The notes below the pieces were generated by a model. It was given only the letters and a program-made list of their open reading frames with translations. It was not told the DNA's origin and made no database searches. Positions 11,642-42,085 of a stretch of 42,085 nucleotides of DNA are shown one piece after another. Source of the stretch: a virus. A program made the translations under genes and the position numbers. The stretch's first letter is position 1. Each line of letters opens with the position of its first letter. The stretch lies in the IMG/VR virus record IMGVR_UViG_3300034523_000024, positions 1 through 42,085 of that record; one strand, given 5' to 3'.

Positions 11642-13767
11642 TACGCAAGGATGCCTCCGGGTCGCTTTTGTTTCACCAATTCTGACTGCACAGCGGCTGC
11701 AATCACGCGGCCCAATGCAGCGCCAGATCCTGCATCACCTTGCACGCTGCTGCCGCTGGCGTCCACGTTGACTACCACGTTGGTGGCGCCAAAGGTACCG
11801 GATGGCGCAATGCCGCCGCTGCGTCCTGGCGTGAACAGCTCCGGACCACGTTCGCCGACGAGGTAGCTGCGACCGCTAGAGACGCTACCGCCCATGGCAC
11901 GCTTGCCGCCAAGACCAACCATGCCGAGCAGTCCGCCGCCAGTACCGGATCCGGTCATGCTGCCGAATAGCGCAAGGTTGACGGCAACATCAATCAGCTT
12001 GGCTGAGATGCTGCGCAACACTTGCGAGGCGACATCACCGAGGCTCTTGGTGCCATCAATAGCGCCTTGGATGGCATCAACAACGCCATCCTTAATGGTG
12101 CTGCCGATGTCGGTGTAGAGCTGCTTCATCTGGTCAGCAGCAGCGATCTGCTTCTTCAGTGCTTCAATGCCTTGCAGCTTGGCTTTGACATCAGCTTCTG
12201 ATAGGCCTTTGGTGTCCTTCATCAGGTCGCGCAACTGCTGCTGCAGGATCACTTCAGCTTCGTTGCCATTCAGCTTGGCACGCAGCAACGCTTCTTCATC
12301 CATCAATGTTTGCAGCTTGTCTTGCCCTGCTTTGATTAGCTCTTGGTCTTTTTTTGCTTGCTCCTCTTGCAGCTTGAACAGGTCTTCATCAAGACGCAAT
12401 GCACGCTCTTTTGCCTTGTAGCGCAACTCAGCGATCTGGTTTGCTTTTGCTTGCGCTGGCAGATCTTTATTGGCAAGGATCTCAGTACCTTGTGCGCTGA
12501 TTGCTAGTAGATCCTTCTGCGCCTCGCGTGCTAGTACCAGTTGTTTGTTGTTGTTCTTGCGTGCAGTCAGTAGCCGTTGTTGAATAATGAACTCTTGCTG
12601 CGCAACACCAAGCGAGCGACTGCTTAACGCAATCTGCTGCGCCGCGCGCTCTGCTTCACGCTTGCGCTTTTCTTCCTCGCGCTTTGCTTTTGCTGCTGCG
12701 CCTTTATCCTCCTCAGCAAGCAGCGCCGGTGGTTTGGTCGTTGCAGCGGGCGCAGTTACAGTTGGCTTTACTTGGCCGGTACGCAAGCCAAATGCTTCTA
12801 TCAGATCTCTCTCGCGTTGCGCCTTCAGTTCTTGAAATTGACGATTGCGCTCAAATGGATCTCGTATTCTACGTCGATTAACTATGTCTTCCGCTTCGCG
12901 TTCCGCTTGGCGCAGTATTTGCTGGCGTTGACTTTGGTTCAAGCCAAATGCTTTGGCTCGTGCGCCAGTGTTCAACAAGTTATTGATCGTATTGATTGCA
13001 AATATCGCCTCATTCAAGACCGATTTAATTGCAGGCGTTAGGCTCGTGCCAATCACGCGAGCAATAGTCTCAACCCCATCCGTCAAGGTGCTGAACTTGC
13101 CTGCCAGCGTGTCGCTTTGAGCGATGGCGCCATTGGCGTATTTGCCGCCCTTTTCTGTTAGGCGAACGATGGCAACCTCAACAGCTTCTGCGCTGATGCG
13201 ACCCTTGCTCAGTGCCTTACTGAACTCCTCGCCGGTGAGTCCATACATCTTGCGCAGCTCATCCTGCAGCGCAACGCCACGCTCTTGGAACTGCAGCAGC
13301 TCTTCGCCTTGCAGCCTGCCCTTAGCGATGACTTGACCGTAGGCAAGCGACAACTCGCCAAGGTTGGCGCCAGTGGCGCCGGCTACGTCACCCAGTCGCC
13401 TGGTGGTTTCAACCACCTTTTCAGCGCTGACGCCAAACGCCGTCAACCGCTTGGCAGTTTCAATCAGCTCTGTACTGGTAAATGGCGTTACCGCACCGAT
13501 CGCCTGCAGTTCAGAGATGATCTGCTTTGCCTTATCAACGCTGCCCGTCAGTGTTTGAATACTGCGGGTTTGTGTTTCAAGCTCTGCGGTCTTGACAACA
13601 ACAAACCGTATTGCAGCCGCTGCAGATAATGCAACACCAAGGCTTGCGACGGCGCCGCGCAATGCGTTGATGCCTGCTGTTGCTGTTTTTGACGCGCCGT
13701 TGATCTGCTGCAAGTTGCGCACAGCAGACTGACTGTTTACCTGTACGTCAACAACAGCAACAGCCAC
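11641..13767 (-). CDS. Tail tape measure protein
   Basis: This 708-residue protein starts at a GTG (13765-13767) behind a strong GGGAGG ribosome-binding site. It has a short hydrophobic segment near 35-55, then the tape measure N-terminal domain (AVTPFTSTELIETAKRL, then FQERGVALQDELRKMYG). A long Lys/Glu/Gln-rich coiled coil spans about 280-560, and a glycine-rich end (GGSVSSGRSYLVGERGPELF) is typical of tape measures. With the lambda ratio of about 0.15 nm per residue the tail would be near 105 nm (inference). It follows the G/GT chaperones as in lambda. Confidence 0.95.
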   Translation of the reverse strand: MAVAVVDVQVNSQSAVRNLQQINGASKTATAGINALRGAVASLGVALSAAAAIRFVVVKTAELETQTRSIQTLTGSVDKAKQIISELQAIGAVTPFTSTELIETAKRLTAFGVSAEKVVETTRRLGDVAGATGANLGELSLAYGQVIAKGRLQGEELLQFQERGVALQDELRKMYGLTGEEFSKALSKGRISAEAVEVAIVRLTEKGGKYANGAIAQSDTLAGKFSTLTDGVETIARVIGTSLTPAIKSVLNEAIFAINTINNLLNTGARAKAFGLNQSQRQQILRQAEREAEDIVNRRRIRDPFERNRQFQELKAQRERDLIEAFGLRTGQVKPTVTAPAATTKPPALLAEEDKGAAAKAKREEEKRKREAERAAQQIALSSRSLGVAQQEFIIQQRLLTARKNNNKQLVLAREAQKDLLAISAQGTEILANKDLPAQAKANQIAELRYKAKERALRLDEDLFKLQEEQAKKDQELIKAGQDKLQTLMDEEALLRAKLNGNEAEVILQQQLRDLMKDTKGLSEADVKAKLQGIEALKKQIAAADQMKQLYTDIGSTIKDGVVDAIQGAIDGTKSLGDVASQVLRSISAKLIDVAVNLALFGSMTGSGTGGGLLGMVGLGGKRAMGGSVSSGRSYLVGERGPELFTPGRSGGIAPSGTFGATNVVVNVDASGSSVQGDAGSGAALGRVIAAAVQSELVKQKRPGGILA

Positions 13768-14746: not shown

Positions 14747-15163
14747 TCAGATGTCCATAGTGATGGCGCCGTTGGTCACGAAGCTGACCGTGATCACTTC
14801 GATTTCGCCAACGGTGGCAGAGTATTCGGCAGAGGTTACGACACCATCAAAGCTAATTTTCTTGGTGCCGCTTGTATCAAGGTACAGCTCAAACAACGCA
14901 GCACCGGCATCATTGGCGGTGTTGACGTATTCGATGAACACATTAGTTTCATCGGCGCTGCTGGCGGTGTACATCAGCTCGCAGGTGCCAGAGCCGCTGA
15001 TCAAGCCGCCGACATTACCACGGTAGGTATCACCCAGTGCGGTGGTATCGAGTGATTCCTTCTCAACAGTCAACGACCACGCACGAGTGCTGGCGATTGT
15101 TGCTGCAGTGGAACCAGCATCATCAAACTTGACGCTGCCTTGCTGCCCTCGGTAAAAAGCCAT
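14747..15163 (-). CDS. Tail tube protein, copy 1
   Basis: This 138-residue protein has the same start (MAFYRGQQG), the same SLDTTALGDTYRGNVGG and ISGSGTCELMYT blocks and the same TSAEYSATVGEIE end as the following gene. The middle (residues 65-105) differs most. Two bases separate the two genes, which fits an old tandem duplication followed by divergence. It follows the tail terminator as lambda V follows U. Confidence 0.88.
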   Translation of the reverse strand: MAFYRGQQGSVKFDDAGSTAATIASTRAWSLTVEKESLDTTALGDTYRGNVGGLISGSGTCELMYTASSADETNVFIEYVNTANDAGAALFELYLDTSGTKKISFDGVVTSAEYSATVGEIEVITVSFVTNGAITMDI

Positions 15164-27080: not shown

Positions 27081-29579
27081 TTAGGCGCTTTGGATCGGGA
27101 TTTTGACCGCTCGACCGCTCAAGCCAGTGCCGCGGAAGTAAACGGTGCCGGCTTTGGCTGCGCCAGGCAATCGGGCCAGCACGGTGGACCAGCAGTTAGC
27201 CCATGCGGTGTCGCGGAGCATGGTGGCGATGGCTTCAGCGGTGTTGGAGATAAACACGTGGCCATCATCTGCCTTGATTCCATTTCTACCTAAAACCGCT
27301 TGCGCAATGGTGGATGTAATATCTGCATCAGCGGCATGATGCGTCGCAATATCTACCAGCTCGCCAATAGTCCTAGTGACCACCTTATCCGCTTCCACGC
27401 GGATTTGCTGCTGCAAGATACGCTGCAGGCATCGTTTTTCGTCCGGCACCTCTGTGGTTTGAGAGTAAGATTCCCATTCGTTTTGATCAATCAAGGCGAA
27501 CGCTTGATCGCGTGTCGGCACCTCGCGCGACTGCAAAGACCATGCTCCAGCTAGCAAGGTGCCGTATTGATCACCGAGCCGCTGGCTATCGAAAGCCTCT
27601 GCCGCCGCACGGGTAAAGACCCTAACCGACTGGCGAATAACAGGAATCAGGGATATGGTTCGCGCCTGCAATCGTTGCCCGACTTGATCAGTCACGTAGC
27701 GGTCAAGATCACGGTCTAGCGCTTCCCAGTGATCCAACCTTGCTTGCTTGGCGAACTCATTTGGATTGCGCAAGGTAAGCTGCGCAAATCGTGATTTATC
27801 GGCGCCTTGTTTCAGCGCAGTAGCAATGCTGCTCATCAGAAACATTGATCGGATGGTGTAGCGCTGTGCATCGCCTTCGGCGCTGCCCTTAATGGTTTGC
27901 GCTCGTGACTCACTACTGGCCACACGTGCTAGTGACAGCACGGCTTGCATCCGCTGCTGATCTGGGCGCTCGTTGGACTCCGCCTCGTCAAACACCACCG
28001 GCAATGCATCGGCCCGTAGGGTCTGCCGTAGGCCAGCTTCACTGGTGTTGCCGGCCACGTGAAGGGCAAGGTCGCCGAGCAACGGGGCGATGTAGCGATC
28101 AAGGATGGCGGATTTGCCGGATCCGGCGCCTGCTGTGAGCCAGATATGCGGCCGCCAGTCAAGAGCACCGCAGATCGGCGCAAGCGCTGCCCATCCAGCA
28201 ATAAGCAGCCCAGACGCTGGCACCTCCCATTTGAACCGCCCCGCCAGCTCCAGCAGCAGATACGCATCTTGATCGGAAAGTGGCACTGCCTTGCCGGGAC
28301 CGCGCAAGCTGCCAAGCCGCTGGTACAGGTATCGGCTGCCTGTAATGCCGGAGGATATGGGCACCTCTTGATTAGTCAATACAAGCCGATCACCTAGGTG
28401 CAATACGGATTGCTTCTGATCCCACCATGCGCCACGGCCACGGATGCGATCTGGTGAGTAGATGCCAGCAGCAGCTTGACGTTCAAACAGGCTGCTGGCC
28501 GCTGCAGTCCAGTTAGCACCGGTCTTGGATGGGTAAAGCGACTCCCAATAAGCGAGCGGCGCAATGGCGCAGAGATTGGTGCCGGTATGCGCTGAGCGCG
28601 ACAGCCTGGTTACCTGCCCAGTGCTGTGTGGCTGGTAATAGAAGGCGTCATGGTCAAAACCAAGGCACGTGAAGTAGTCATTGCCATTCGGCAGTGGATC
28701 CGGCTCAATGACTGGCTCCGGTTCAGGCTCTGGTGCCAGTTCCGGCAATTCAATCGGTGCGGAGCGGTTGTGCTTGAGATATGCAGCGGCCGCAGCCGCG
28801 CTCCAGTCGGCATCAGCCAGATCCCACCCTTCTGGCACGTCTGCTGGCGGATGGACGACGCGTACTTGATCGGCGCCAGCCTTCAAAAGCCGGATCGCCA
28901 GTTTTGCCATGGCTTCACGGCCTACGGCATCGGCGTCAGGCCATAGAACGCAACGCTTGCCGGCCAACGGTGACCAATCGGCTTTGTCGATGGCTTTGCA
29001 GCCGCTGGGCCATGTGACAACCACGGCTGATGGATAGAGAAGTGCTGCTGCATCAGCGGTTTTTTCGCCTTCAACCACCAGTACCGGTGCATTGGGCTTA
29101 AGCGCTAACTGGCGCTTGCCATACAGCGGACGTGGCGCCGGCGGCGCTTTCCACTTCCATGCGGAGCCATCCCACCACAAAGGCAGGATGTCTTTACCAC
29201 CATCTGGCTTGTCTTTGCGGACAACGTAAAACGTGCTGCTGTATTGCCAGAACTGCTTGCCGTGCGGCAATGGCGGATTTGGTATCGGCTTGGCAACGCC
29301 TAGATGCTGTTCGATGCGCTGGCACGCTTCGATATAGCTCAATCGCTGATGACGCATGAATAGATCCATGCCGGTGCCGCCACCACCTGTTTGATCCTTG
29401 CCGCCGCATTTGTTGCAGTACCAAGAGCCGGAGCCGTCCTGATCATCAAAGCGGTAGCGATCCTTGCCGCCGCATAGCGGGCAGGGCTGGTGCTTGTCGG
29501 ATAACTGGTCTGGCGTCAAGCCACAAAAATGCGCCAGCAGGTCAGGCCACCTGCCGCGTGCTGCGTCGAGGATGCTCAT
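27081..29579 (-). CDS. Primase-helicase (zinc ribbon, Toprim, P-loop helicase)
   Basis: This 832-residue protein begins with a zinc ribbon (C33, C36, C55, C58; CPLCGGKDRYRF, WYCNKCGG). A Toprim domain follows (VLVVEGEK with E170; VLWPDADA with D215 and D217). A Pro/Glu linker (about 279-296) leads to an ATPase with AGAGSGKS at 483-490 and VVFDEAES at 529-535. It should make primers and unwind DNA at the fork. It follows a small RHH gene with an ATGA overlap. It has no polymerase domain. Confidence 0.9.
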   Translation of the reverse strand: MSILDAARGRWPDLLAHFCGLTPDQLSDKHQPCPLCGGKDRYRFDDQDGSGSWYCNKCGGKDQTGGGGTGMDLFMRHQRLSYIEACQRIEQHLGVAKPIPNPPLPHGKQFWQYSSTFYVVRKDKPDGGKDILPLWWDGSAWKWKAPPAPRPLYGKRQLALKPNAPVLVVEGEKTADAAALLYPSAVVVTWPSGCKAIDKADWSPLAGKRCVLWPDADAVGREAMAKLAIRLLKAGADQVRVVHPPADVPEGWDLADADWSAAAAAAYLKHNRSAPIELPELAPEPEPEPVIEPDPLPNGNDYFTCLGFDHDAFYYQPHSTGQVTRLSRSAHTGTNLCAIAPLAYWESLYPSKTGANWTAAASSLFERQAAAGIYSPDRIRGRGAWWDQKQSVLHLGDRLVLTNQEVPISSGITGSRYLYQRLGSLRGPGKAVPLSDQDAYLLLELAGRFKWEVPASGLLIAGWAALAPICGALDWRPHIWLTAGAGSGKSAILDRYIAPLLGDLALHVAGNTSEAGLRQTLRADALPVVFDEAESNERPDQQRMQAVLSLARVASSESRAQTIKGSAEGDAQRYTIRSMFLMSSIATALKQGADKSRFAQLTLRNPNEFAKQARLDHWEALDRDLDRYVTDQVGQRLQARTISLIPVIRQSVRVFTRAAAEAFDSQRLGDQYGTLLAGAWSLQSREVPTRDQAFALIDQNEWESYSQTTEVPDEKRCLQRILQQQIRVEADKVVTRTIGELVDIATHHAADADITSTIAQAVLGRNGIKADDGHVFISNTAEAIATMLRDTAWANCWSTVLARLPGAAKAGTVYFRGTGLSGRAVKIPIQSA

Positions 29580-29740
29580 CGCTTGGATTCCGGCAGGATG
29601 CCATCACGGTGGAAACGCATGGCCTCGTCAACCACAAGCCTCAACGCAGCTGAACGGGAAAGGCCAGCAGCGCAGCGACTGTCCAGCCAGGCAAGCTGCT
29701 CAACGGTGAACTGGACCGATAGCGGGTGGGCAAGCTCCAT
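29576..29740 (-). CDS. Small ribbon-helix-helix protein, 54 residues
   Basis: This frame runs from ATG at 29738-29740 to TGA at 29576-29578. It shows an RHH layout: strand HPLSVQFT, helix VEQLAWLDSRCAAG, then LSRSAALRLVVDEAM. It is the first gene of the minus arm, with a stop that overlaps the primase start (ATGA). The 35-bp palindrome at 29758-29792 lies 17 bases upstream, so this protein is a strong candidate for the regulator of the divergent promoters. Confidence 0.75.
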   Translation of the reverse strand: MELAHPLSVQFTVEQLAWLDSRCAAGLSRSAALRLVVDEAMRFHRDGILPESKR

Positions 29741-29757
29741 GATTTTTAGCGGTTAGC

Positions 29758-29792
29758 TTGCACAGGCTAGCGGTCGGTGCTAGCGTTTGCAA
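29758..29792. promoter_or_regulatory. Imperfect palindrome with mirrored divergent promoters
   Basis: These 35 bases pair with their own reverse complement at 13 of 17 positions. On the plus strand TTGCAC (29758-29763) and TAGCGT (29781-29786) are 17 bases apart. On the minus strand TTGCAA (29792-29787) and TAGCCT (29769-29764) are also 17 bases apart. The two promoters overlap fully, so only one could be occupied at a time. GCTAGC occurs in each arm (29766-29771, 29779-29784). A TGGAGG ribosome-binding site at 29798-29803 serves the plus gene. Confidence 0.65.
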
Positions 29793-29814
29793 GCCAGTGG
29801 AGGCATTCGCGCTC

Positions 29815-31401
29815 ATGAATCAAAAGCAAAAACCACTTTGGATGGCAATGCAGTATGCCGGCCTGAATGCTCCAGGTACGCCTCGCGATGCCATCGCGGC
29901 TCAGATTCTGGCAGTCAGGGACTGGCTAGAAGATGGGATCCCGTCACAGCTCTACAACTTGCTGACGGCGCAATCACTAGAGGCTGAGCAGACTCAGCTG
30001 CCCGCAGCGGCTACCAGGCCAGCAATCCTGCGGCTTACATCCGATCAGCAGGCGGCGATCGAGGGGATTCTTGAAGACATCAGGAAGCCCAATGCAACTC
30101 CTGTGCTTTGCGGCTATGCCGGCACTGGTAAAACGGTCACGACGGCAGCCTTGGTATCGCGACTGGCTGACTTGGGTAAACGGGTGGTAGTCGCCACGCC
30201 AACGCACAAGGCGCGGTCGCAGGTTGAACGCGCCTTGGACAACTGCGGCGCCCACGGATTTGAAGCTGTCACAGTAGCCCGCTTGCTAGGGCTGAAGCAG
30301 GTTCGCGACCGCGACACTGGCAAGGAAATGTTTAGGCCAGATCCAAGCGGCAAAAACATGCTCAACAAAAAAGATGAATGGGATGACGAGGAAAAAGAAA
30401 TGATTAAATTGCGTCAAATTGACATTGTTATTGTTGATGAAACATCAATGCTCAGCAGCGAGCTTTACGACTTGTTATTGCAAGAGCTGCAAAGTCGCCC
30501 AGTGGTTTTTGTTGGCGATGATCGCCAATTACTGCCAGTCGGCGAAGATCAAGCCTGCAGGGCATTTACCGAGGGCAGTTCTCTCTATCGATTGACCGAG
30601 GTGCTGCGGCATGATGGCGCGATTTTGAATTTAGCCACCGCCACCAGGCTAATGCCGGTCGGCAGAGCTCGATTCGCGACAGCCGAAGGCGGAGGCTCTC
30701 TAGTGGTCGGCCACCGCAGCCGAGAGCAGTGGGGCGCTGCCCTGCTGGAGATGGCGGCGTCAGAGGAAGCTATGAGCAATCCCGATTTCTGCCGGGCACT
30801 GGCCTACACCAACAAAGCAGTAGATGAGATGAACTTGCGCATTCATCGGCGTCGTTATGGGATGAACGCGCCGCAGTTTGTCGAAGGCATGACCTGCGTG
30901 ACCGTGGATGCCATTCCGGATCCGCTGGGAACAGGTTTGCTCCTAAACAGCACGGTCGATGTGCTGATCGAAGAGGCCAAGCGCGGCCAGTACCAGTTTA
31001 CGGATGCTGGCGACCTGCCGACTGATGAGCCGTGGGATACCTGGGAGCTCACGGTCACTGGAGATTTCTATATGGCGAAGACGTTTCGCGTCATCGCCAA
31101 GGAGCATGAACAGCGCTGGAAAGAATCATTAAAGAACATCGCCAATGAGGCAGCGGCTTCCGTAGGCAAAGAACGATCTGAGCTATGGAGCTTGTATTTT
31201 CGTCGCAAAGATTGCGTCGGCAAGCTTCAGCCCGCCAGCGCCCTGACGATCCATAAGTCCCAAGGCAGCACGTTTCGGCATGTGTTCCTGCACTGGAGCA
31301 TTGATGGCTGGGGTTCGGCGCCTACCGCACAGCAGAATCAACTTGCTTACGTTGGCATCACCAGGGCCGCCGAAAGCCTGCACGTGGTGGCAGACCGATG
31401 A
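29815..31401 (+). CDS. SF1 helicase, RecD/Dda-like
   Basis: This 528-residue protein starts at the ATG at 29815 behind TGGAGG; an upstream frame start would lie in the promoter. It has Walker A GYAGTGKT (100-107), motif Ia VVVATPTHKAR, Walker B IVIVDETSM (DE at 208-209), motif III VVFVGDDRQLLPVG, and the late motifs TIHKSQGSTF and LAYVGITRA. This is the pattern of Dda/RecD 5'-3' helicases. It opens the plus arm and probably assists fork start or recombination. Confidence 0.92.
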   Translation: MNQKQKPLWMAMQYAGLNAPGTPRDAIAAQILAVRDWLEDGIPSQLYNLLTAQSLEAEQTQLPAAATRPAILRLTSDQQAAIEGILEDIRKPNATPVLCGYAGTGKTVTTAALVSRLADLGKRVVVATPTHKARSQVERALDNCGAHGFEAVTVARLLGLKQVRDRDTGKEMFRPDPSGKNMLNKKDEWDDEEKEMIKLRQIDIVIVDETSMLSSELYDLLLQELQSRPVVFVGDDRQLLPVGEDQACRAFTEGSSLYRLTEVLRHDGAILNLATATRLMPVGRARFATAEGGGSLVVGHRSREQWGAALLEMAASEEAMSNPDFCRALAYTNKAVDEMNLRIHRRRYGMNAPQFVEGMTCVTVDAIPDPLGTGLLLNSTVDVLIEEAKRGQYQFTDAGDLPTDEPWDTWELTVTGDFYMAKTFRVIAKEHEQRWKESLKNIANEAAASVGKERSELWSLYFRRKDCVGKLQPASALTIHKSQGSTFRHVFLHWSIDGWGSAPTAQQNQLAYVGITRAAESLHVVADR

Positions 31402-31649
31402 CTTGGACCCTATCCATTCGCAAGTTGCTGCAACTGCGGCAGCTGCATGGTGACCAGAAGGTGCTTGACCTGCTTGAGCTGTCGATGGCTGGCCCTGAAG
31501 GCATGGTGTCAACACAGGCGTTGATCGAGCGCTGGCAGGTGACGCAATCGGCCGTCAGCCGGCGCATCACCAGCCTGCAGGCCGTAGGCCTGGTGGATGT
31601 TACCGCAGGCGGCGGCAGCTATCGCGTGCATTGGACGTTGTTGCGATGA
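31398..31649 (+). CDS. Winged-helix DNA-binding protein (MarR-like)
   Basis: This 83-residue protein is helical at the start (SIRKLLQLRQLHGDQKVLDLL). It has a helix-turn-helix (STQALIERWQVTQSAVSRRI) followed by a wing (GLVDVTAGGGSYRVHW). Its ATG overlaps the helicase stop and its stop overlaps the next start, so it is made with both helicases. It could regulate the arm or guide the helicases; the target is not visible. Confidence 0.75.
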   Translation: MTWTLSIRKLLQLRQLHGDQKVLDLLELSMAGPEGMVSTQALIERWQVTQSAVSRRITSLQAVGLVDVTAGGGSYRVHWTLLR

Positions 31650-33432: not shown

Positions 33433-33778
33433 GCAATCTATCCAGCAACACATCAGGCTTGCTTGCAGTCGCGGCCCAGTGCGGCTGTTCCGCAACAACA
33501 CCGGCACGCTGCGTGACCAGCACGGCAGACCGGTGCAGTTTGGGCTGTGCAAAGGCAGCGCTGACCTGATCGGCTGGCGCACGATCACCATCACGCCGGA
33601 GATGGTTGGCCAGCAAGTGGCGGTGTTCGCCAGCATCGAGGTAAAGACCGCAACCGGCAAGCTGCGCCCTGAGCAGCAGCAGTGGCTAGATGCCGTCCAG
33701 TCGGCTGGTGGCATTGCAGGCGTGGCGCGCAGCGTCGAGGATGCCGAGCGGTTGACCATGGTTGCACATGATGTATAG
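33422..33778 (+). CDS. VRR-NUC domain nuclease
   Basis: This 118-residue protein has the VRR-NUC pattern: a first helix with E4 and QQHI, then LCKGSADLIGW with D48, the ASIEVKTA strand with E73 and K75, and RPEQQQWLDAVQSAGG. These form a PD-(D/E)XK site; the family is linked to Holliday junction cutting. It lies next to two helicases. Its last codons also contain a promoter-like element at 33752-33779, so coding and regulatory signals overlap. Confidence 0.88.
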   Translation: MPSEQSIQQHIRLACSRGPVRLFRNNTGTLRDQHGRPVQFGLCKGSADLIGWRTITITPEMVGQQVAVFASIEVKTATGKLRPEQQQWLDAVQSAGGIAGVARSVEDAERLTMVAHDV

Positions 33779-34232: not shown

Positions 34233-34238
34233 GCTGGG

Positions 34239-34266
34239 TTGACCATGGTTGCGCATGGTGTAGGAT
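34239..34266 (+). promoter_or_regulatory. Promoter-like element, copy 2
   Basis: TTGACC (34239-34244) and TAGGAT (34261-34266) are 16 bases apart. The sequence matches the element at 33752-33779 in the -35, most of the spacer and the start of the -10. It stands just after the RlpA-like stop and about 40 bases before the next ATG, so it would drive the following small genes. Confidence 0.6.
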
Positions 34267-39149: not shown

Positions 39150-40076
39150 ATGTCTGACGCCATTGGAGACTACCTGAACAATATCGCGCGTTATCCACTG
39201 CTAACGCCGCAACAAGAGATACAACTTGGCAGACGCGTTGCAAGATGGAAAGAACTTAAGGATCTTGATAGAACCTTAACCACGCAAGAGCGGCGTGAGC
39301 TTCGCAGTGGCGAGCGTGCACGTCAGCGGTTTATGCAATCCAACCTGCAGCTTGTTGTGCATGTTGCACGCAAATACAGCAAGCGCAATACGCAGACGCT
39401 TGACATGATGGATTTGATTCAAGAAGGCAACATCGGCCTAGCGCGTGCAGTTGAGTTGTTTGATTACTCGCGCGGCTACAAGTTCAGCACCTACGCCTAC
39501 TGGTGGATTCGTCAAGCGATTGGCCGCGCATTGGTGCAATACGACCCAATCATCAGGCTGCCGCTTGGCGTGCACGAGATGCTGACCAAACTCAACAGGA
39601 CCGCGCAGCAATTTGCACAAGAGCATGGACGCACAGCAACCATCAGCGAACTTGCCGCGGTGCTTGAAGTGGAGCCAGTAGTTATATCTGACACATTGAA
39701 ACAAACGTATCGAGTAACGAGCCTCGATAAACCAGCGCAAGAGGATTCATCTAGCATCTTGGATCTGATCGCAGATCACAGGCAATATGACGTTGAATAT
39801 GACTGGCAGGTTGAGGTTATCCGTGACTATTGCGAAGAGTATCTAGATGACCGCACGCGTGAAATCATCTACGCACGCAACAGCCGCAACCCTGTGCCAT
39901 GGAATGACCTTGAAAAGCGATTGGGCATTTCACGCGGTCATATGTGCCAGCTTCAGTTGCGTGGCATCAACCGCCTTCGTATGCTGATAGGCAACCCACT
40001 GGCAGGCACACCACTTGGGTCCAACGATAAAGAAAGTCGGCAATCTATGGAGAGTTTGCCTAGCTGGGATGTGTAA
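39150..40076 (+). CDS. Sigma-70 family sigma factor, cyanobacterial group 2-like
   Basis: This 308-residue protein holds region 1.2 (DAIGDYLNNIARYPLLTPQQ, residues 3-22), region 2 (NLQLVVHVARKYSKR, LDMMDLIQEGNIGLARAVE, YKFSTYAYWWIRQAI at 110-124), region 3 (GRTATISELAAVLEV) and region 4 (about 219-281). Regions 1.2 to 2.4 resemble cyanobacterial housekeeping-type sigmas. Region 4.2 (WNDLEKRLGISRGHMCQLQL) lacks the usual ER-RQIE recognition helix, so -35 preference may differ. It is the last gene of the plus arm. It probably directs host RNA polymerase to phage promoters. Confidence 0.9.
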   Translation: MSDAIGDYLNNIARYPLLTPQQEIQLGRRVARWKELKDLDRTLTTQERRELRSGERARQRFMQSNLQLVVHVARKYSKRNTQTLDMMDLIQEGNIGLARAVELFDYSRGYKFSTYAYWWIRQAIGRALVQYDPIIRLPLGVHEMLTKLNRTAQQFAQEHGRTATISELAAVLEVEPVVISDTLKQTYRVTSLDKPAQEDSSSILDLIADHRQYDVEYDWQVEVIRDYCEEYLDDRTREIIYARNSRNPVPWNDLEKRLGISRGHMCQLQLRGINRLRMLIGNPLAGTPLGSNDKESRQSMESLPSWDV

Positions 40077-41621: not shown

Positions 41622-41870
41622 CTAGGTATGTGGCCTTGCCTCTAGCTTAGATACCCTTTGCTCAACAGTATTCAGCCGCGTGAATGTTTCCTTGCGGTCT
41701 TCTTTGATGTCAGTGTGCAGCACTTCAAGCTGCGTGGCAATGTGCTCTACGGCGCTTGTGAGCCGAATCACTGCATCGCGCGCTTCATCATTGCGACGGC
41801 TGAACCCAGCTGCACCCATCGCAGCCACGCTGATGGACGCTCCAGCAACAGCAGCGATGATTTCAACCAT
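41622..41870 (-). CDS. XhlA-like membrane protein with coiled coil
   Basis: This 82-residue protein has an N-terminal membrane segment (IIAAVAGASISVAAMGAAGF). A coiled coil follows (RLTSAVEHIATQLEVLHTDI, then KEDRKETFTRLNTVEQRVSK). The order is the reverse of XhlA, whose membrane segment is C-terminal. Many cyanophages have this type before their lysis genes. It probably acts as a lysis accessory or spanin-like protein. Its first 22 bases recur at the left end of the window. Confidence 0.68.
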   Translation of the reverse strand: MVEIIAAVAGASISVAAMGAAGFSRRNDEARDAVIRLTSAVEHIATQLEVLHTDIKEDRKETFTRLNTVEQRVSKLEARPHT

Positions 41871-42085
41871 GCAACCAGCTTAGCGGCCCTGTCCGCGCAG
41901 AGGTTTCTTGCCGCGGCGGCGTGGTCTGCTGTGTTGACCCATGCCTTGACTGGTGGTCTTCGGTGGTCCGGGTTGGTGCTCGATGCGAGCGGTGCCAGTC
42001 TTGCTGCGTACTGCCATGGCTGCTATGCTGGTGGTCTAGTTTTTCGAGAACTAGGCGATACCGTAGCGGCAGGCTGCGGTGAGGC
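41849..42085. repeat. Terminal direct repeat, right copy
   Basis: This copy matches 1-237 except for G at 41976 and G at 41982. Both changes are silent in the 45-residue gene on the minus strand. Here the XhlA-like gene is complete, while sequence after base 237 continues only at the left end. Joining the two gives one continuous minus arm from tail genes to lysis genes. Confidence 0.95.
41880..42017 (-). CDS. Small basic protein, 45 residues (right repeat copy)
   Basis: This is the second copy of the gene at 32-169 and encodes the identical protein. It lies 9 bases upstream of the XhlA-like gene in the same direction, so it belongs to the lysis-side end of the minus arm. If the genome is circular the two copies are one gene. 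Confidence 0.7.
   Translation of the reverse strand: MAVRSKTGTARIEHQPGPPKTTSQGMGQHSRPRRRGKKPLRGQGR

Follow-up and report, generated by a model that had tools for sequence, protein, structure and literature searches.

Two opposing promoters and a putative RHH operator predicted within one palindrome between the divergent arms of a viral genome

Background

Arc of phage P22 is an RHH-fold protein some 53 residues long that acts in the immI region together with Mnt; inside a promoter it binds inverted half-sites with a separation of about 11 bp, and we know of no mirrored-promoter layout for it. In tetA/tetR of Tn10 the divergent promoters overlap, and an autorepressor encoded on one side acts over both; this repressor, TetR, is of the helix-turn-helix kind, responds to a small-molecule inducer and has its operators as a tandem pair (PMC4788846). 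The bidirectional promoters of E. coli described by Warman et al. share their -10 element, the starts lying mostly 18, 10 or 23 bp apart, and polymerase binds their pseudo-symmetric sequence in two exclusive orientations (PMC12825309). On plasmid pLS20 the divergent promoters Pr and Pc overlap, one of them serving the regulator, whose operator overlaps as well; the regulator Rco acts on its own promoter as activator as well as repressor, and forms a DNA loop between two operators (PMC4207663).

In the present study we analysed a viral stretch of 42,085 nucleotides, here called the window, in which a mirrored element lies between two divergent gene arms. No description of this element was found in the literature searched, where subscription journals were sparsely covered.

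Results

The palindrome and its boxes

The gap of 74 bp between the gene of an RHH-like protein, followed by a primase gene, and a divergent gene for a Dda-like helicase holds a 39-bp imperfect palindrome (29756-29794) in which 14 of 16 arm pairs match around a centre of 7 nt. None of 2000 dinucleotide shuffles of the gap gave an equally good palindrome. The initial annotation had described a 35-bp palindrome with 13 of 17 pairs; the imperfect symmetry was found as described, but we counted 12 of 17 pairs in that stretch (29758-29792, TTGCACAGGCTAGCGGTCGGTGCTAGCGTTTGCAA) and the extent is 39 bp.

It had further read a -35/-10 pair with 17-base spacing on each strand, and these boxes (TTGNNN-N17-TANNNT) were found where it had placed them. 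The rightward promoter has its -35 TTGCAC at 29758-29763 and its -10 TAGCGT at 29781-29786 (plus strand), and the leftward promoter has its -35 TTGCAA at 29787-29792 and its -10 TAGCCT at 29764-29769 (minus strand). Each -10 abuts the -35 of the other strand, and the boxes of both strands interleave throughout 29758-29792. One such mirrored set of box pairs occurs in the real window, as against 4 in total across 100 shuffled windows. A strict E. coli sigma-70 consensus scan gave no promoter at the palindrome, since boxes of the TTGC/TANNNT form fall outside its strict limits. Judged by E. coli rules the hexamers are weak and become convincing only through their conservation, hence the case for promoters rests on relatives.

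Genes flanking the element

Leftward from the element run the gene of the 54-residue RHH-like protein, a predicted repressor (29576-29740, minus strand), and the primase gene (27081-29579, minus strand; PHROG DNA primase, E 8e-140; Pfam Zn_Ribbon_Prim), which overlaps the end of the former. Rightward lies the Dda-like helicase gene (29815-31401, plus strand; PHROG Dda-like helicase, E 8e-71; Pfam AAA_30), most likely starting at the ATG at 29815 behind the ribosome-binding site GGAGG (29799-29803, plus strand). Replication functions are found on both arms, and the leftward arm goes on into packaging and virion genes.

Some further features of the window were noted. An 83-residue ORF 3' of the helicase gene (31398-31649, plus strand) weakly matches a family of phage transcriptional regulators (phrog_2440, E 0.001), and the final gene of the rightward arm (39150-40076, plus strand) has a match to phrog_351 (E 2e-61), a family of phage RNA polymerase sigma factors, and may turn on later genes. 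Two near-identical promoter-like 26-mers, GGTTGACCATGGTTGC[AG]CATG[AG]TGTA, are intergenic in the rightward arm (33750-33775 and 34237-34262, both plus strand). The two ends of the window, 1-237 and 41849-42085, carry the same 237-bp sequence apart from 2 mismatches; the window therefore probably represents one complete genome unit of about 41,848 bp, either terminally redundant or assembled in circularly permuted form.

The label RHH is used tentatively, from a motif, a weak match to Pfam RHH_1 and a two-helix model. RHH_1 was matched weakly by 3 of 19 relatives of the 54-residue protein (best E 0.016), while the protein itself gave no match in Pfam, PHROG or NCBIfam; a profile search of PDB sequences returned no RHH protein, and no homology to P22 Arc was detected. 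The predicted monomer has an extended N-terminus and helices at residues 13-21 and 29-45, and the PDB matches of its fold include NikR, ParD and a MazE-type antitoxin, none of them significant.

Conservation of the promoter pair in relatives

Relatives were collected by protein-guided scans of viral contigs (22 helicase loci and three overlapping sets of 80 primase loci), by a DNA framework scan of viral contigs (62 stretches) and from bacterial genomes (26 loci). As the bacterial loci are mostly from Cyanobium, Synechococcus and Vulcanococcus, they suggest picocyanobacteria as the hosts of these viruses. Comparison of the DNA with annotated phages matched only Synechococcus phage S-H1 (MK105819.1) and short fragments. 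S-H1 has the same mirrored element at 14891-14927, adjoined by an unannotated RHH gene of 50 residues (14943-15095 of MK105819.1, corresponding to 2343-2495 of our locus L323).

Since a requirement for outer palindromy missed relatives with a 16-bp spacer, elements were found through similarity of the RHH protein and the upstream DNA was read afterwards, which avoids selecting for the feature itself. This gave 68 distinct elements with a TA-N11-TA core, of which one start-codon artefact was left out (n = 67). At one locus (L068) an apparent failure was due to a mis-called start codon, and the element is there. It should be noted that the counts are not independent, the element sequences sharing kinship.

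The final T of the -10 box (T6) is kept in 67/67 elements in the RHH direction and in 66/67 in the opposite direction. A TTG at a spacer of 16-18 is kept in 58/67 and 63/67 respectively, the opposite spacer being nearly always 17, and all four boxes are present in 56/67; in several relatives the leftward -35 reads TTGACA. Among the first 60 elements both T6 positions are kept in 60/60 and the centre is unconserved, with an opposite spacer of 17 (18 in a single case) and an RHH-direction spacer of 16 or 17. The RHH start lies about 16-18 bp beyond the RHH-side TTG complement of the palindrome. The framework scan gave 52 distinct contexts, of which 40 adjoin an RHH gene, every one of these 40 with both -10 boxes. 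When all loci are taken together, this element accounts for 134 of 161 distinct mirrored pairs. Two further mirrored elements (3241-3277 of L105 and 6493-6529 of L147) have larger ORFs on both sides, and additional genes seem to intervene between them and an RHH gene.

The relatives strongly support both promoters as real. The suggestion of two nested, mutually exclusive promoters agrees with these interleaved and conserved box pairs, and the alignment of relatives, which the initial annotation had proposed as a check, finds both pairs kept.

A predicted operator that covaries with the RHH protein

Across the centre of the palindrome, at 29768-29782, lies a predicted RHH operator, TAGC-N7-GCTA, which overlaps both -10 boxes. 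Its flanks vary with residue 10 of the RHH protein. With Arg at this position (strand xPxxVRLT), the left TA step is preceded by G and the right one followed by C in 38/38 elements; with Gln, Leu or Thr, the G/C flanks occur in 0/29. Because of the kinship among the sequences, the p-value of this association should not be read at face value. The two flanks also covary mutually (0.82 complementary, 0.39 expected), while no covariation across the centre was seen at the -10 interiors or other variable positions beyond the half-site flank. The RHH protein of S-H1 is a mosaic, with an Arg-type strand and a helix region resembling the Gln type; because its operator has G/C, the flanking base follows the strand residue.

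A third half-site, GCTA, lies at 29747-29750 on the minus strand, at a distance of 21 bp from the closer half of the operator. Such an extra GCTA, displaced by 20-21 bp in the direction of the RHH gene, recurs in 23/29 elements of the Gln/Leu/Thr type, to which the window belongs, and in 0/38 of the Arg type. The sequence GCTAGC itself shows no enrichment in the window, and the sole other TAGC-N7-GCTA there, at 11864 inside the tape-measure gene, was rejected as a second operator, being at chance level. On the evidence of the relatives, control by the neighbouring RHH protein, as the initial annotation had supposed, is likely.

Natural variants

In three relatives (L033, L060 and L261, the last on the same contig as L053) the pair has come apart into two one-way promoters, and each covers a TA-N11-TA operator of its own. 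Here the opposite-gene promoter keeps TTG and T6 and has lost the -35 and T6 of the RHH direction (TACCGA, TACGGC, TACTGG). The three loci may represent a single event, with one type of opposite gene apparently common to all. As the promoters are separate in these relatives, overlap is not indispensable.

The promoter module persists while the gene opposite complete elements changes; 17 unrelated families are represented, with helicases, HNH nucleases, DNA methylases, a PAPS-reductase-like and a PLD-like protein among them, and this gene is divergent in every case with enough sequence. An RHH subfamily of RRTITL type has a one-way promoter without the mirror, and in several of its members the upstream ORF is co-directional. 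More distant relatives, Cyanobium genomes among them, keep the divergent helicase and primase arms without the mirror, and in these the RHH gene and the whole control region differ too. Loss of symmetry with both arms kept, which had been named beforehand as a finding that would speak against a switch, hence does exist at greater distance, but with the regulator exchanged as well. In bacterial genomes (loci L160-L184; Cyanobium, Synechococcus, Vulcanococcus) a related primase and another type of RHH protein face away from a DEAD-box-like helicase; each strand there has TAGGCT boxes, but the TTG mirror is absent.

Discussion

The boxes, their conservation, the covariation of protein and operator and the divergent layout are seen directly in the DNA. 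On these we build a reading that we consider probable, namely a nested divergent promoter with a built-in operator, through which the RHH product represses both directions. The element would hold a single RNA polymerase at any moment, facing either arm. Predicted starts are at about 29757 for the leftward transcript (RHH and primase) and about 29793 for the rightward one (helicase), approximately 36 bp apart. The 54-residue RHH protein, whose gene comes first in the leftward transcript, probably occupies TAGC-N7-GCTA in the form of paired dimers, and since the half-sites overlap both -10 boxes the bound protein would cover both and should silence both directions. As an autoregulated, shared early promoter, the element would then fire on entry and be throttled as RHH accumulates. 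Promoter activity, binding, two-way repression and timing are what we infer here from sequence.

It is unlikely that only the promoter of RHH and primase is real, the palindrome being the RHH operator and the opposite promoter a by-product of its symmetry. A symmetric operator over a single promoter would indeed yield mirrored boxes, and the conserved T6 positions are symmetric. Against this, the opposite spacer stays at 17 while the RHH-side spacer is 16 or 17, and where the outer symmetry is broken both TTGs are kept. Symmetry imposed by the operator also fits poorly with the lack of cross-centre covariation at variable positions beyond the half-site flank, and the split loci retain the operator while losing only the boxes of the unused direction. 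A divergent gene stands on the opposite side wherever there is enough sequence.

We regard it as quite unlikely that the element is a decision switch, as first proposed, in which the phage is committed to one of its arms through binding of RHH or through exclusion of polymerase. The nested boxes would rule out simultaneous polymerases, and a comparable plasmid switch is known (PMC4207663). A decision between the arms would require RHH to favour one direction, for which the only asymmetry is the third half-site on the RHH side, which could act in the window's subfamily. The operator instead overlaps both -10 boxes, the opposite gene has changed among 17 families, three split relatives manage without overlap, and replication functions lie on both arms; the proposal of a switch between the arms was therefore not supported. 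Further, bidirectional promoters of E. coli that are weak show no competition at the basal level (PMC12825309), and for this reason exclusion may matter little until firing is strong.

That the site is a replication origin or the recognition site of another protein, though palindromic and placed between replication genes, is very unlikely, and an origin was rejected, since the site keeps a fixed position relative to the RHH start, its half-sites change together with residues of the RHH protein, there is no GC-skew turning point at the site and the conserved positions are those of a sigma-70-type promoter.

Returning to the nested promoter under RHH control, we speculate, with considerable doubt, that the nested layout itself has been selected: one polymerase slot time-shared by two arms, together with RHH feedback, might form a portable socket for changing early genes, either by holding the two transcripts at a set ratio or by causing individual infections to differ in the arm that fires first.

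A likely early control point of a large family of picocyanobacterial viruses has here been identified from sequence alone, with a regulator small enough to have escaped annotation. The covariation of protein and DNA offers a recognition code open to direct testing, and the isolate S-H1 makes the system experimentally accessible. The changing opposite genes mark an acquisition site at which helicase, nuclease and methylase genes come under ready-made control. The element is also a conserved natural case for asking what mutually exclusive promoters are good for.

Compared with the known systems, the RHH-like protein resembles P22 Arc by analogy, as a small phage protein of putative RHH type with predicted inverted half-sites inside a promoter. 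With Pr/Pc of pLS20 (PMC4207663) the element shares, as predicted, overlapping divergent promoters, one of them for the regulator, and an overlapping operator of that regulator; a second operator for looping of the pLS20 kind was not found within the window, the copy at 11864 being at chance level. The promoters of Warman et al. (PMC12825309) share with it the pseudo-symmetric sequence and the two exclusive orientations of polymerase predicted here, whereas here each direction has a private -10 and -35, the two -10 boxes being separate (29764-29769 and 29781-29786). Because the former share a -10, with starts mostly 18, 10 or 23 bp apart as against a predicted 36 bp or so here, we see the element as a variant of the known kinds of divergent promoter. 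As in tetA/tetR (PMC4788846), divergent core elements overlap, as read from the boxes, and the regulator is encoded by one of the two transcripts, by analogy as a putative autorepressor over both; in contrast to that system the regulator here is a putative RHH protein of 54 residues, smaller than TetR, with one symmetric operator, the boxes are fully nested and the opposite gene changes. Of the described systems, tetA/tetR comes nearest in its logic, pLS20 Pr/Pc as a switch, and the promoters of Warman et al. by their symmetry.
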